Source: Myxococcales bacterium
GTDB taxonomy: Bacteria; Myxococcota_A; Polyangia; Polyangiales; Polyangiaceae
Assembly: GCA_013297655.1 (NCBI GenBank)
Contig: JAAFHV010000004.1
Span: 1-48,327 of the forward strand
Reading direction: 5' to 3'
Length of the DNA: 48,327 bases
Under the pieces are notes generated by a model. It was not told the DNA's origin. It searched no databases and saw only the letters and a program-made list of their open reading frames with translations. Both the position numbers and the translations under genes were made by a program. This document shows positions 1 to 5,067 of the stretch, piece by piece. The first letter of the stretch is position 1. Each line of letters begins with the position of its first letter.

Positions 1-300
1 GCGACCGCGATGAAGGAGGCGCTCGGGCTGTTCGGCGAGTGGCGGAGGCTCGATCGCGCGAAACAGAACGTCGCGAACGAGCGGCAAACCCTCTACGAGA
101 AACAACGTCGGATCAACGAGCAGCTCGCGGTGCTGAAAGACGGCGGCCCCGAGGCGCAGCTCCGCGCGCGCTACGTGAAGGAGCTCGAGGCCGCCCAAGA
201 CGCGCTCGTCGCCCTCGACGACAAAGAGCTGCGCCTCGCGAAAGAGGCAGAAGAAGCGGGCGCAGCGGCCTGGCGCACGATCGCGACGCAAGTGAAGTAA
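1..300 (+). CDS. C-terminal part of a coiled-coil protein (5' end outside window)
   Basis: The frame is open from the first base, so this is probably the 3' end of a longer gene; the ATG at 10 is likely internal. The visible 99 residues are almost entirely charged, helical and heptad-like, with an LRARYVKELEAAQDAL segment, which indicates a coiled coil. Its character recalls the C-terminal helices of DUF4139-type proteins, but I cannot confirm the family without the N-terminus. The stop is TAA at 298-300. There is no clear terminator before the MITE-like element that follows. Confidence 0.6.
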   Translation, partial: ATAMKEALGLFGEWRRLDRAKQNVANERQTLYEKQRRINEQLAVLKDGGPEAQLRARYVKELEAAQDALVALDDKELRLAKEAEEAGAAAWRTIATQVK

Positions 301-360
301 GGACTCTGTTTGCGCGGTTATTCGACTAGCAGGCTGCTGAAAAAGGGACCGAATCCGTCC

Positions 361-389
361 GTCCCTCGTCAGGGACTTCCAAGGGTCGT
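361..389. repeat. 29-bp hairpin repeat, copy 1
   Basis: The first of two identical 29-bp copies inside the MITE-like element. It starts with a 6-bp stem and 4-nt loop (GTCCCT-CGTC-AGGGAC) and ends in TTCCAAGGGTCGT. The second copy begins 79 bp later. Confidence 0.8.
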
Positions 390-439
390 CGTCGTCGCCG
401 CAAGAGCGAGGCGTCGATCCGAGGAGCGCGCGGAGCCTA

Positions 440-468
440 GTCCCTCGTCAGGGACTTCCAAGGGTCGT
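440..468. repeat. 29-bp hairpin repeat, copy 2
   Basis: An exact second copy of the 29-bp repeat at 361-389, in the same orientation, again starting with the GTCCCT/AGGGAC stem. The DNA between the copies is unrelated to them. Confidence 0.8.
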
Positions 469-559
469 TTTCTAGGTGAGCACGCACCGGAGGATCGCAA
501 CGAAGCTCTTGCGAGTGCGGCGGCGGACGGACGACGGGAGTTTTTAAGCAGCCTGCTAG

Positions 560-602
560 AACTAGATCGTCAGGATACGAAAACTAGATCGTCAGGATAC
601 GA
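560..602. repeat. Tandem 21-bp direct repeat next to the MITE
   Basis: Two exact 21-bp copies (560-580 and 582-602) with a 22-bp period, each containing ACTAGATCGTCAGGATACGA. They abut the right end of the MITE-like element and reach to within 18 bp of the stop of the flavin monooxygenase gene. Each copy contains CTAG, the sequence found at the element ends. Confidence 0.8.
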
Positions 603-619
603 GCTGCGGCCTCGAGCGC

Positions 620-1870
620 TCAGATCGCGAGCGTCTTACCGAAGAAGCCGTCCACCACGCCGCACATCGAAAGCGCCATGATTTTTCGCGTGAAGCCGAT
701 CTTGTTCATGATCGGCATCGCCACGTCGCGGAGGGTACCGAAGCCCTCGTCGTCGCCCTGGAAGAAGGGAGTGAGCCACCGCGTCGCGAGTTGATAGAAG
801 GCGAGGTGCTCGCGTCGTATCCGGCTGTACGTGTCGAGCGCGGTAGGCAGCTCCACGTCGGCGGTGAGGCAGTCGGCGAGCGTCATCGCGTCCCAGAGGG
901 CGAGATTGCAGCCCTGGCCGAGCTGTGGGCTCATCGCGTGGCCGGCGTCGCCGAGGTAAACCACGCTCCGCGTGTTCCATCGCGCCATTCGAACGTCGTG
1001 ATAGACCGAAAAGAGGAGGCTCTCGCGGCCTCGGATTTGGAAGACCAAGTCTTCCGCGTCCGGCACCATGTCGAGGATCTCGTCTTTCCAACGCTCGATA
1101 CCCGTCGAGAGGAGCTCTTCCAGGCGGTCGGCGCGGACACTCCAATAGAGGCTCACGAGCGGCGTGATGCCGGACGGGCCCGTGCCGCTCGGGAGGAGAC
1201 CGAGCATTTTTTGATTCTTCTCGACCACTTGATAGAGCGTGCGGCGGAAGCGCTTCTCCTTGTCTTCCCCTACGAACCAAAGCGCTCCCCACGCGTACGG
1301 CGAGACCACCTTCGTGAGATCGGTGTCGTCGCGGAAGCTGGAGCGCGCACCGTCGCACACGAGGACGAGCTCGTGCGGACCATGGCGCCGCCCCTCGTCG
1401 TCGACGATGCGGTAGCGGCGCGGAGCCGAGCGACCCGGGCCGCCAGCGAAGCCCTCCGCTGCGGGCTCCGCACGCTCGAGGTCGACGCACGAGACCCCGA
1501 GGCGCAGATCGACGCCGCTCTCCTGGACCTCGTGGAAGAGGCTCTGGAACACGACCCCGCGGTGGATGCCCACGCCGTAGAAGCGATCACTCGCGTGGCG
1601 GTAGTGGAGGTCGAGGAGGGTGCGCTTCTTCGTGTGCGTCACGCAATGGAGGCGATCGATGCGCGCTCCGCGAGAGACGATCTCGCGCTTTAGCCCGAGC
1701 TTCTCCAGCACGTGAAGCCCCGTCGGCTGGAGGGTGATTCCAGCGCCCACCGGCCCCGGTTCGCGCACGCGCTCGTACACCGTGACGTGGTGCCCAGCGC
1801 GCGCGAGGAAGATGGCGACGGCGCTTCCTGCCGTGCCACACCCGATGACCCCAATCGAGAGGCGACGCAC
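620..1870 (-). CDS. FAD-dependent monooxygenase (UbiH/PHBH-like)
   Basis: A 416-residue flavoprotein of the aromatic-ring hydroxylase class, normally using NAD(P)H and O2 to hydroxylate an aromatic or polyketide-like substrate. The N-terminus has the FAD-binding Rossmann motif GVIGCGTAGSAVAIFLARAG (residues 7-26) followed by the ribose-binding YER. The second FAD motif, YLGDAGHAMSPQLGQGCNLA, sits about three quarters along, and its GD and DA residues are intact. The length is normal. The start is GTG; upstream is TAAGAC followed by 7 nt, a near match to the leaderless pattern in this window. The gene stands alone, so no pathway can be assigned and the substrate is unknown. Confidence 0.85.
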   Translation of the reverse strand: MRRLSIGVIGCGTAGSAVAIFLARAGHHVTVYERVREPGPVGAGITLQPTGLHVLEKLGLKREIVSRGARIDRLHCVTHTKKRTLLDLHYRHASDRFYGVGIHRGVVFQSLFHEVQESGVDLRLGVSCVDLERAEPAAEGFAGGPGRSAPRRYRIVDDEGRRHGPHELVLVCDGARSSFRDDTDLTKVVSPYAWGALWFVGEDKEKRFRRTLYQVVEKNQKMLGLLPSGTGPSGITPLVSLYWSVRADRLEELLSTGIERWKDEILDMVPDAEDLVFQIRGRESLLFSVYHDVRMARWNTRSVVYLGDAGHAMSPQLGQGCNLALWDAMTLADCLTADVELPTALDTYSRIRREHLAFYQLATRWLTPFFQGDDEGFGTLRDVAMPIMNKIGFTRKIMALSMCGVVDGFFGKTLAI

Positions 1871-2034
1871 GCGAACGGTCTTATCACGACGCGCGGGCGA
1901 TGGGCCCTCACCGAACGAGCAAGGCAGCCAACCGAACGCGCGAAAGTCACGCCGGAGAGCGCGCGCGCGAGCGACGAAATGCCGGCCGCGCTCGTGTGAC
2001 GGAAGGAAGGGAGGCCGTCGCCCCGCGCGTTTGC

Positions 2035-2040
2035 TACGAT
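2035..2040 (+). promoter_or_regulatory. -10-like TACGAT 6 nt before the start at 2047
   Basis: TACGAT ends 6 nt before the ATG and no Shine-Dalgarno is present, so a transcript starting about 7 nt downstream of the hexamer would be leaderless. No convincing -35 is seen. Confidence 0.45.
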
Positions 2041-2046
2041 CGTGTC

Positions 2047-2850
2047 ATGCGGGATGGGAACGGTCCGTCCGTGCCGAATTGGCGCGTCCCTTCGACGCCC
2101 GAGGTCGGGCCGTGTGTTGGCGGGCGAACGCTCACACCCGGCGCGTTCGGAGCGCTCGTCGCGATCACGGCGGCGGTCGCCGCGAGCTGCCTTACGGGCT
2201 GCCCTGGCGCTCCCCCGCCCCACAGCGAGAGCACCACGCCGATCCCGATGCACGCGGCGGGCAAGGCGAAGGTCGTGTTCCTCTGGCCATCGGACAACTG
2301 CGAGCCCGGCGGGCACTACACGATCGCGACGAGCGGCGGCAGGTTCCTCGGCAACGTGGGCCGCGGCACCCGCCTCGAGGTCGACCTACCCGAAGGCGCG
2401 TTCACGTTCTTCGCGTGGAACCACCGCCGCGAGGAGACCTCGCTCACCGTCTCGTCCGCGAACGTGGCGGTGATGCACGCCGAAGTATATGCAGACCGCA
2501 CGTATTTCGTCCGCCTAGCGTTCGGGGAATGGGACGAGCATGGCCCGCGTGTGCGCTACGGGGGCGATTTCCGCCGGCGCGGCACGGCCTACCGCGTTTG
2601 TGTCTCCGCCGACGCCGCCCTCTTCGCCCTCGCCCCGAAGAGTGAAGACTGGGCGAGCCTCCACGACTGGCTCGACGAGCTCACCCCTGTCGCGTCGCGA
2701 AACCCCGACGGTCAAGCGTGGCTCGACGCGGAGCCGCTCATGCTCCCCGACCACCGCGCCCTCGGTGAGCGCCATTGGCTGCGCATGACGGGCGAGGCGC
2801 AAAAGATCGCGACGCTGTCGGCCCGCGACGGCGTGAGGGTAGAGCCCTGA
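2047..2850 (+). CDS. Lipoprotein of unknown function, DUF2846-like
   Basis: A 267-residue predicted lipoprotein. After a long N-terminal stretch, a hydrophobic segment (about residues 34-48) leads to the lipobox LTGC, with the acylated cysteine at 52. The mature part is mainly beta: a GKAKVVFLWPSDNCEPGG strand region, a GGRFLGNVGRGTRLEVDLPEG segment and a RTYFVRLAFGEW strand. This resembles the layout of DUF2846-type envelope proteins, but that is my impression from pattern only. The ATG at 2047 is chosen because TACGAT lies 6 nt upstream; the frame is open further upstream, but that sequence looks non-coding. It is convergent with the HEPN gene. The function is unknown. Confidence 0.7.
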   Translation: MRDGNGPSVPNWRVPSTPEVGPCVGGRTLTPGAFGALVAITAAVAASCLTGCPGAPPPHSESTTPIPMHAAGKAKVVFLWPSDNCEPGGHYTIATSGGRFLGNVGRGTRLEVDLPEGAFTFFAWNHRREETSLTVSSANVAVMHAEVYADRTYFVRLAFGEWDEHGPRVRYGGDFRRRGTAYRVCVSADAALFALAPKSEDWASLHDWLDELTPVASRNPDGQAWLDAEPLMLPDHRALGERHWLRMTGEAQKIATLSARDGVRVEP

Positions 2851-2907
2851 CGGGCTGCGAAGAGTCCAAAGCAGCTCGGCGATATCGAGCCCGGCCTTCT
2901 GCGCGCG

Positions 2908-3315
2908 TTACGACGACAAGGAGCGCGCGCGCAAGTGGGCAATCGCCTTCTCGATGAACGCACCAGCGTCGACGAAGGCAGAGTCGAGAATTTCCTGAGT
3001 GGCGTCGAAGGCACGCTCGTAGTCGGCCATATCGCGATAGGTCGCGAGGCGCGCCAAGCGCGCAGCGTCGGTGGCGTCGAAGCCGGCGCCTGCAAGGTGG
3101 GTGAGCAGAAGGCCCGGCATCCCGCGATGCCGTCTTGGCTCGACGCCTTCGGTCAGGAGCAGCGCCGTCGCGTGGTGAAAGACGGCATAATACAAGCGAC
3201 TCAACGCGTCGTTGCGCATCCCGAGATCGCGCAGCGAGGTCGCCGCGGCGAGCGCTTGTTCGCCGTGCCGCACCTCGCGCGCGACGGCGTCGCTCAACGC
3301 TTCGTCGATCGTCAT
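2908..3315 (-). CDS. HEPN-domain protein, probable toxin of an MNT/HEPN pair
   Basis: A 135-residue all-helical protein matching the HEPN fold. Signature features are SRLYYAVFHHATALLL (residues 39-54) and YRDMADY (93-99). The arginine at 40 followed six residues later by histidine (R-x6-H) fits the RX4-6H motif of HEPN ribonucleases, although its position near the first helix should be checked against a structure. Its ATG overlaps the stop of the upstream nucleotidyltransferase gene (ATGA at 3312-3315), so the two are translationally coupled. In characterised MNT/HEPN systems the nucleotidyltransferase modifies and neutralises the HEPN RNase. That role is inferred here. Confidence 0.8.
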   Translation of the reverse strand: MTIDEALSDAVAREVRHGEQALAAATSLRDLGMRNDALSRLYYAVFHHATALLLTEGVEPRRHRGMPGLLLTHLAGAGFDATDAARLARLATYRDMADYERAFDATQEILDSAFVDAGAFIEKAIAHLRARSLSS

Positions 3316-3647
3316 GGCCGTTCTCCGTCGCGCTCGACTTCGCGCACGAAAGCGCCACCCGCGAGCGCAGGATCGTGGCCCGCGGCGAACCGCTCGGTGG
3401 CCATGGGAACCGAGGCGAGCGGGATCCCCGTTTCGATCGCGAGCGCAAACGTGATGTCGGAGACCGACGCGATTTCGTGGGACGCGAGGTCATCGACGAG
3501 CACGAGCACGTCGACGTCGGAGTGTTCGTTCGCCTCTCCACGGGCGTACGAGCCAAACAGACGAACCTCCGAGAACCGCTCCGCGAACCGAAGCGCGAGG
3601 CGCGTCTCGAGCTCCAACAAAACGGGACGGAGATGCGACGGCATCAT
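3312..3647 (-). CDS. Minimal nucleotidyltransferase (MNT), probable antitoxin
   Basis: A 111-residue protein of the NTP_transf_2 / MNT type. The diagnostic motif GSYARGEANEHSDVDVLVLV gives the GS loop and the two metal-binding aspartates (DVD). The usual third carboxylate on the later strand is not obvious in the IPLASVPMA segment. Three in-frame ATGs exist (3653, 3647, 3644). I prefer 3647 because TAGCGT lies exactly 7 nt before it, matching the leaderless pattern elsewhere. The gene lies 43 bp after the histidine kinase stop and overlaps the HEPN gene by 4 bp. MNT antitoxins adenylylate or otherwise modify the HEPN partner; which chemistry applies here is not visible. Confidence 0.8.
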   Translation of the reverse strand: MMPSHLRPVLLELETRLALRFAERFSEVRLFGSYARGEANEHSDVDVLVLVDDLASHEIASVSDITFALAIETGIPLASVPMATERFAAGHDPALAGGAFVREVERDGERP

Positions 3648-3654
3648 TGCCATG

Positions 3655-3660
3655 ACGCTA
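3655..3660 (-). promoter_or_regulatory. -10-like TAGCGT before the MNT gene
   Basis: On the minus strand TAGCGT is followed by 7 nt and then the ATG at 3647. No -35 is evident. It would allow the toxin-antitoxin pair to be transcribed separately from the upstream kinase gene. Confidence 0.4.
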
Positions 3661-3690
3661 GCACGGCGACCGACGTTGGCGGTCGCGCGT

Positions 3691-5067
3691 CTACGTCGCA
3701 CCCGGTCCTTGCACGGGAATCGAGAGCTCGAACGTGGCGCCTCCGCCCGGCGTCTCCAACAGGGTGACACCGCCCCCGTGCGCCTCCGCGATCCGCCGCA
3801 CCACCGGCAACCCGAGGCCGGTCCCCGTCGCGCGGGTGGTGAAGAACGGCAGGAAGATTTGCCCGTATATCTCCTTCGGCACGCCGCGACCCTCGTCGAT
3901 CACACGGAGCGAAAGGCGCCGATGCGCGCACGTCGCCGTCACGCGGACGGGCCCGCGACGATCGGGGGCGTCGACCGCGTTCGTGAGCAAGTTGATGACG
4001 GCTTGCCTCACCAGGCGCTCGTCGCAGTGCACCTTCGGGAGGCCGGACGCGAGCTCGAGCTCCACGTCGACCGCGGACTCGGGACAGGCCGTGCGAACCG
4101 CTTCTATCGCGCTCTCCACGATCGGCTGGACGTCGCTCGGCTCGAGCACGAGGCTCTCGGGTCGCGCGAACTCGAGGAGATCGGCGACCATGCGCTTCAG
4201 GCGCTCTGCCTCTTCCTCGACGATCCCGAGGAGCTTGTCCGGATCTTCGGGGCGCTTTCGCAACGTGGCGATCGCGTTGAAAATAACGGCGACGGGGTTT
4301 CTCACCTCGTGCGCGACGACAGCCGACATTTCGCCGAGGGCGGCGAGCCGGGCCTGGCGCACGAGCTCCTCTTCGGCGGACCGAAGTTGGCGCGCGTTGC
4401 GCACGTACGCGCGCGACAAGTCGTACGAGACGGCGACGACGAGCACGAGATACCCGACGTCGAGCAGATAGGGCATTTCGAGGACACCGGACGAGACCAG
4501 GCTGTCGCTCGTCGCCGCGAGCGCGAGCGCGAAGAGCCCCACGATCTCGCCCGCCAAGTTTCGGTCGCCGCGGCGAAAGCGCAATACCGCGCGCACCGCG
4601 ACGAGGCCAATCGCGCCGAGGAGGTAGACGAACGTAACGTTCCCGAGGGTCGTCGATCGGGCGTCGTTGTATTGGATACCTAGCCAAGGGATCGGGTGGT
4701 CCCAGGGCTCGCTGGCGTAGAGCGTGCCGGGGAAGAGGCCGATCATCCCGAAGCACAGCGACCCCGCCACGATCGCCTTCTCGAAGCGGTAGAGCGGACG
4801 CTCGTCACGCCGGGACGAGTACACGAGCCACGAGCTCGCGTGGAGGGCCATGAGGAGGACCACGAACCTCAACGCGATCCGCGCCGCGAGCGCGCTCCCC
4901 GACGACTGCGCCGCCATCGCGCATGCGTATCCCGCGCCGCACATCGAGCTCGCCGAGAACCAACGGAGCCCGCGAAGGCCGGGCGCGTCCGAGATCGACC
5001 ACGTCATCGCGGCGAACAACGTGCCCACGACCGCCGTCGTCACCGACACGAGGGTCGCGACGTTCAA
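3691..5067 (-). CDS. Membrane-bound sensor histidine kinase
   Basis: A 458-residue kinase. The N-terminal half (about 1-215) has six or seven hydrophobic spans and no large periplasmic domain, so it probably senses a signal in or near the membrane. A short linker leads to the HisKA H-box AVVAHEVRNPVAV with phospho-acceptor H253. The HATPase domain has the N-box NLLTNAVDA (359-367), G1 DEGRGVP (391-397), an F-box FLPFFTT and G2 GTGLGLPV. The start is TTG, with GGAG 9 nt upstream. There is no adjacent response regulator, so it is an orphan kinase. The MNT/HEPN pair follows on the same strand. Confidence 0.88.
   Translation of the reverse strand: MNVATLVSVTTAVVGTLFAAMTWSISDAPGLRGLRWFSASSMCGAGYACAMAAQSSGSALAARIALRFVVLLMALHASSWLVYSSRRDERPLYRFEKAIVAGSLCFGMIGLFPGTLYASEPWDHPIPWLGIQYNDARSTTLGNVTFVYLLGAIGLVAVRAVLRFRRGDRNLAGEIVGLFALALAATSDSLVSSGVLEMPYLLDVGYLVLVVAVSYDLSRAYVRNARQLRSAEEELVRQARLAALGEMSAVVAHEVRNPVAVIFNAIATLRKRPEDPDKLLGIVEEEAERLKRMVADLLEFARPESLVLEPSDVQPIVESAIEAVRTACPESAVDVELELASGLPKVHCDERLVRQAVINLLTNAVDAPDRRGPVRVTATCAHRRLSLRVIDEGRGVPKEIYGQIFLPFFTTRATGTGLGLPVVRRIAEAHGGGVTLLETPGGGATFELSIPVQGPGAT

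Follow-up and report, generated by a model that had tools for sequence, protein, structure and literature searches.

A putative IS5-family MITE of a Myxococcales bacterium that probably holds two copies of a 27-bp mobile element

The stretch of DNA analysed here (48,327 bp, hereafter the window) contains a 234-bp element at positions 326-559 that is very probably a non-autonomous IS5-family MITE, moved in trans and holding two copies of a 27-bp mobile element. Judged from its sequence, the MITE is non-coding and, taken alone, an ordinary and routine member of its family. The nested unit, far below the size of any transposon yet apparently moving, can be followed to the exact base, and it is documented with empty sites, two length forms that compete for those sites, covariation in its hairpin, tandem arrays, and in-frame nine-codon inserts in conserved enzymes of distant bacteria. 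With its edges, its target and Y1-free candidate genomes named, the spread of repeats of 20-40 bp becomes directly testable. The features of the element are as follows.

326-559, + strand: putative IS5-family MITE, type A, CTAGs included, with inverted ends, two full and one truncated further copies in its own genome, and a related IS with a transposase in genome G043
326-329, no strand: CTAG, left copy, presumed 4-bp target duplication, by comparison with related elements
330-344, + strand: left terminal inverted repeat CAGGCTGCTGAAAAA, from arm comparison and 15-mer search
541-555, - strand: right terminal inverted repeat, one mismatch, from arm comparison and 15-mer search
556-559, no strand: CTAG, right copy, presumed target duplication, from the sequence and related elements
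362-388, + strand: putative 27-bp mobile unit, copy 1, at host site 1 (..GTCG^TCG.. in type-B copies), a site empty in the type-B copies of contigs C224 and C530 and holding a 34-bp form in C65
441-467, + strand: putative 27-bp mobile unit, copy 2, at host site 2 (GCCTAG^TTTTCTAGG), with the empty site in C530 and C224 (0 of 36 mismatches)
436-476, + strand: small inverted repeat CCTAG/CTAGG flanking unit copy 2; the empty site, minus the unit, is predicted to fold as a hairpin with the loop TTTT

The anatomy from which a MITE-like element had originally been predicted was confirmed. The inverted arms (326-344 and 541-559; 19 nt each, 196 nt apart) are complementary at 18 of 19 positions (95%), CTAG stands at both outer ends, and the 15-mer CAGGCTGCTGAAAAA (≤2 mismatches) is restricted within the 48,327-bp window to the two MITE ends, with 0.00 occurrences expected (100 shuffles). 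The accompanying claim that no protein is encoded between the ends also holds: open reading frames called by program run mechanically across the MITE (e.g. 310-681, 123 aa, TTG start), but no coding evidence was found in 326-559, and repeats alone lie between the ends of the family copies. Absent from the original prediction is a direct repeat of 29 bp inside the MITE (361-389 and 440-468). Without its two 27-bp units, the window MITE measures 172 bp between the CTAGs, and 14 related MITEs measure 120-174 bp. A 22-bp tandem duplication with ACTAGATCGTCAGGATACGA (561-602) adjoins the right end of the MITE and starts near a CTAG.

The original prediction had proposed that a search of the genome with the element and its ends would reveal further copies and name the family, and both searches were productive. 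In its own genome (G000; 9.9 Mb, 546 contigs), the 234-bp element has two full further copies (C532:13009-13241, 96%, and C168:33162-33394, 95%) and a truncated one (C301:2371-2487), with flanks unrelated to each other. A second set in this genome, type B, has the core of type A and different ends (AGCCCGTTGATTTTCGGACC, 11 matches), flanked, where read, by CTAG, TTAA, TAG or CTGG-like bases. Across the order, 17 of 183 genomes have type-A ends (≤1 mismatch), with none for the reversed control. The 28 loci retrieved there contained 15 inward-facing end pairs, of which 14 span 120-174 bp and the remaining one, with a transposase, 1,299 bp. These pairs are flanked by CTAG on both sides in 11 cases and by TTAG on both sides in one, the others having GTAG/CTAG, CTAG/CTAT and ATAC/CTAG; the IS5 group generates 4-bp target duplications of the YTAR type. 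The long element (G043:C25:23619-24925, CTAGs included) has ends of 15-19 bp as in the window MITE and encodes a 363-aa protein that scores as an IS5-family transposase (NCBIfam NF033581, 265 bits, cut-off 140) and is also above cut-off for PF05598 and PF01609. This parent-type IS lies in another genome and has in common with the window MITE about 20 bp of ends; its transposase has 0 matches in the genome of the window, in a search of a fragmented assembly run without a positive control.

The assignment to the IS5-family MITEs follows from the copies at unrelated sites together with the G043 IS, which has matching ends, CTAG flanks and an IS5-family transposase. Mobilization in trans, as originally claimed, is well supported by this anatomy: a DDE transposase of the IS5 family, supplied in trans, would bind the CAGGCTGCTGAAAAA ends and duplicate a CTAG-like target. 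That the 234-bp element is instead a conserved hairpin with a regulatory role, and no transposon, seems barely credible. Its ends could pair in RNA, but three copies have unrelated flanks, CTAG stands on both sides, an IS with matching ends carries a transposase, and Rfam gave no match in the regions searched (window 1-5000 and 300-620). The element resembles IS5-family MITEs in its ends, its 4-bp CTAG-like target, its lack of genes and its size once the units are removed, and differs from them in holding two nested 27-bp mobile units.

The unit has the sequence TCCCTCGTCAGGGACTTCCAAGGGTCG (27 bp), and its 17-base core TCCCTCGTCAGGGACTT has 158 matches (≤2 mismatches) in the genome of the window, against one for the reversed pattern. 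Among 100 distinct copies read, 70 have the 27-bp form (ending ..CCAAGGGTCG) and 26 a 34-bp form (ending ..GCGGCCCTGTAGCGTCG), while four are of other form or cut by a contig end. The 34-bp form has its first 17 bases in common with the 27-bp form and occupies identical sites; all cases seen are loci of the genome of the window, to which the search for this form was confined.

Mobility of the unit appears from the comparison of filled with empty copies. Each unit was removed, its 18+18 flanking bases were joined, and matches with ≤3 mismatches were collected from all sequences analysed. From 185 units, 31 with another unit in the flank were left out, and an empty site was found for 34 of the 154 tested, at 12 sites, one of which (L291) was a tandem artefact. 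The remaining 11 sites comprise eight in the genome of the window, two in G189 and one in G187; the two G189 loci are each filled where the other is empty. The 11 include both unit sites of the window MITE, which were scored in related copies. When either edge was displaced by 1-3 bases, the result fell to 0-2 matches, and when the whole excised interval was shifted, to 0-1. With looser criteria, three more sites emerged: one in G028, which is the MAG also listed as G189; one in G184, with the empty version in G186 and G183; and another in G187.

Insertion of the unit adds precisely 27 bp, mostly between G and T (CG^T): across 63 clustered contexts (from 126, tandem members left out), the preceding base is G in 45 and the following base T in 54. 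A duplication of 1-2 bp is possible because the unit starts with T or TC, as does the target; nothing longer was seen. Tandem arrays with 27-bp spacing also occur, a spacing that would arise if the end of a unit (..TCG^T) could itself act as a target. A by-eye look for unit halves without a partner, as parts of an autonomous long form, found only apparently decayed units.

The interplay of the two forms is best seen in repeat family C, which has two unit sites. Its 20 scored copies (14 further rows without one or both sites were left out) have the states, first site/second site and 0 for empty, 0/0 (one copy), 0/27 (four), 0/34 (eight), 27/0 (one), 34/0 (one), 34/27 (two) and 34/34 (two), with one copy unclear. 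Occupancy of one site is independent of that of the other, and each of the two forms is found at both. Family C, with CTAGAGC.. ends (L030 from ~40, L037, L086-L096, L124 and others), and families D and E are hosts of 27- and 34-bp units in the genome of the window.

As the sites in this genome lie mostly in repeat families, gene conversion could spread the unit without transposition. Taken further, the units might be immobile, ancestral parts of the MITE that were precisely deleted in some copies and shuffled by gene conversion, and the filled/empty pairs are indeed mostly between repeat-family copies of one genome, where repeats recombine. This reading is quite unlikely: it needs base-exact deletions at 11 sites, one site holds now the 27-bp and now the 34-bp form, and the unit occurs in unrelated hosts, in several families of repeats as well as in single-copy genes, and in more than one phylum. 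It also has to account for interrupted enzyme genes whose solved relatives are without the unit. A mobile unit remains the preferred reading.

The 27 bp amount to nine codons, and the unit is a clean in-frame insert in two enzyme genes. A PfkB-family ORF of the MAG Zod_Metabat.937 (G187) aligns to the solved protein 1vk4 (E 7.7e-82) with a 10-residue gap at the nine codons of the unit, and an oxidoreductase ORF has a 9-residue alignment gap exactly at the unit. In a DUF6178 ORF (L266), the unit falls inside the matched domain by coordinates alone, and an IS91-type transposase ORF (G013:C211; L057:1298-2980, - strand) contains four 27-bp units, all in frame. Both orientations of the unit occur within these ORFs. 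Pfam assigned a family to 8 of 20 frames across units, and because the unit is outside the matched domain in several of them, the gene evidence is limited to the PfkB, oxidoreductase, IS91-type and DUF6178 ORFs. Kin of the IS91-type ORF in ACE_MYX3 and in a Phycisphaerales-titled MAG have units at similar places. Another ORF (L051:1-1746, - strand) has two tandem units in frame and matches the SpvB domain (PF03534).

Within the order, the 23-base core of the 27-bp form (≤2 mismatches) was found in 7 of 183 genomes, with 93 matches in the genome of the window and 2-4 in each of the others. A degenerate 28-base pattern, searched with one genome per species (records of the genome of the window perhaps left out), returned 30 stretches in Polyangiaceae and Myxococcales MAGs, the deltaproteobacterial Zod_Metabat.937, Bacillota/Clostridiales-titled MAGs (TL2-1.bin18, TL1-3.bin40, WH4.bin36 and clean1781) and one Phycisphaerales MAG. 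In total, the unit is present in 13 genomes from myxobacteria, another deltaproteobacterium, four Bacillota MAGs and one Phycisphaerales MAG, a count in which identical MAGs are merged (G013=G188, G021=G191, G028=G189, G116=G190). It is most abundant in the genome of the window (140 units), followed by Zod_Metabat.937 (65), WH4.bin36 (17), TL1-3.bin40 (12) and TL2-1.bin18 (10), with 3-9 in the remaining genomes and a control count of 0 in 11 of 11. Since the unit-bearing genomes with known titles are all MAGs, contigs may have been binned wrongly, a risk that is greatest for the Phycisphaerales MAG, whose unit-bearing contigs resemble those of Polyangiaceae MAG.220 and may be such an error. 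Searches of viral contigs and of phages found no unit, and a search of plasmids gave one 20-base partial match, taken as chance.

The unit has a predicted hairpin at its left edge. When all position pairs were compared across 67 distinct 27-mers, covariation was strongest for 5:10 (C-G 30, T-A 30, G-C 1, T-G 4, C-A 2), which forms the top of a hairpin spanning 1-14, with 15:27 in second place (C-G 61, T-A 4, C-C 2) and 19:23 in fourth (C-G 62, G-C 2, C-A 2, G-G 1). The first hairpin (1-14), with the stem TCCCT/AGGGA of 5 bp (6 with the flanking G), is well supported by this comparison. A second hairpin (15-27), which would join the two ends of the unit, is only suggested; it draws on few sequences, differs from the predicted minimum-energy fold, and is given little weight because folding does not predict it. 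Three consensus units were tested for fold energy, and two of them did no better than shuffles. Insertion sites, once the flanks are joined, are predicted to fold slightly better than chance (mean -10.44 versus -9.62 for mis-joined flanks, sd 0.29, 0 of 300 shuffles, 65 clusters), and the base pairs crossing the insertion point are weakly above those of mis-joined flanks (29 of 300 reach the count). Examples of hairpin sites are site 2 of the window MITE and GGTCTG^TCGGTCAGACC (L205).

Taken together, we infer that the unit would move as a folded single strand, DNA being more likely than RNA, and that it would enter single-stranded or hairpin DNA with the help of a trans-acting enzyme. Among the possible routes, movement as single-stranded DNA, by an HUH-like or other enzyme, is favoured, if somewhat short of an even chance, because of the exact ends, the lack of a resolvable duplication, the left-edge hairpin and the leaning to hairpin sites. 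A route through RNA, template switching during replication, and some further mechanism are each about half as probable. Spread by RNA copying has been proposed for the cyanobacterial small dispersed repeats. Here it would mean that a transcript containing the unit served as template for DNA synthesis at a nick or a hairpin, a doubtful but serious contender that is consistent with the covarying hairpin and the precise ends; a DNA hairpin fits the covariation equally well, and the presence of units in both orientations within genes speaks against the RNA route.

Alternatively, the unit may be REP-like, moved as a single-stranded hairpin by a RAYT or other Y1 (IS200/IS605-type) transposase that cuts after CG. 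The hairpin directly at the left edge and the lack of a resolvable duplication would fit, as would the unit end TCG, which resembles the left flank CG, and the location of some unit sites in small palindromes, as reported for some REPs (PMC3733652). This possibility is nevertheless unlikely. Y1_Tnp (PF01797) is present in 7 of the 11 unit-bearing genomes and absent from the genome of the window (140 units), G187 (65 units), G188 and G190, and none of the 13 Y1 loci inspected yielded a unit. Y1/RAYT was rejected as the mover because four of the 11 genomes searched, including both of those with the most units, gave no match. Copies of a host repeat near two Y1 genes are ~1.4 kb off and without the unit. 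The sole Y2_Tnp (IS91-type) match of the genome of the window (L200, G000:C320:5297-5939) is also without the unit and is probably a broken gene, as it is split over two frames. For an IS91-type (Y2) transposase as the mover, a possibility looked at in the genome of the window alone, the evidence points neither way. Within the preferred single-strand DNA route, the mover of the unit is left unnamed because the obvious Y1 enzyme was not found in the two richest genomes.

Among known repeats, the closest kinds appear to be cyanobacterial small dispersed repeats, REPs and Rickettsia palindromic elements. The cyanobacterial repeats, reportedly described by Elhai et al. in 2008 (Genome Res 18:1484), are said to be ~21-27 nt long, dispersed and mobile, often located in minitransposons, with a covarying hairpin and tandem or nested copies. 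Compared with this description, the unit is alike in its size (27 bp), dispersal and apparent mobility (11 filled/empty sites), and in its minitransposon hosts, covarying hairpin and tandem and nested copies. It differs in its hosts, which are myxobacteria, a deltaproteobacterium and Bacillota, and in its in-frame presence in enzyme genes.

The CGTC-tagged REPs are palindromic repeats of 20-40 bp with a stem of 8-9 bp and A-T at the first two stem positions, some of which lie inside small palindromes and for which a dedicated transposase is not known, according to PMC3733652, where a word search found no mention of Myxococcota or Deltaproteobacteria. The unit is similarly a short palindromic repeat with some copies in small palindromes and no dedicated transposase known. 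Where a target ends in CG, the left junction of the unit reads CGTC, the CG being part of the target. By contrast with these REPs as described there, its stem is 5-6 bp without A-T at the first two positions, and exact insertion with empty sites is documented for it here. Rickettsia palindromic elements, according to PMC2229807 and PMC10969869, are ~105-150 bp long and lie in frame in conserved protein genes; the unit inserts likewise, but is 27 bp long and occurs also inside MITEs. The logic proposed for REPINs and RAYTs in PMC3116915, a short hairpin repeat moved in trans, would also be that of the unit, but the Y1 transposase is missing from the two genomes richest in units.

By these comparisons, the unit seems to be a new variant among very small mobile repeats, placed outside every named family. 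In the literature searched, mostly outside subscription journals, no description of the 27-bp unit in these bacteria was recognised from titles and the beginnings of abstracts. The broadest reading, a family of ~27-bp mobile elements common to myxobacteria, another deltaproteobacterium and Bacillota, which would insert exactly at G^T, often into hairpin loops, into other mobile elements and, in frame, into enzyme genes, by a mechanism that employs no known transposase class, is a tentative proposition, less likely than its alternatives combined.

Two minor observations concern variants of the unit. A subfamily, T15/A27 (L260, L267, L270, L268, L291 and L298), occurs in one deltaproteobacterial and two Bacillota MAGs, and was found once in the middle of a tandem array of the usual form. 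Four Bacillota loci (L300, the same place as L245, and L302, L305 and L314, the last in G185) have the unit in one common context, followed by G, not T, and the frame across the unit in L245 has RRXRR and HNH domains.
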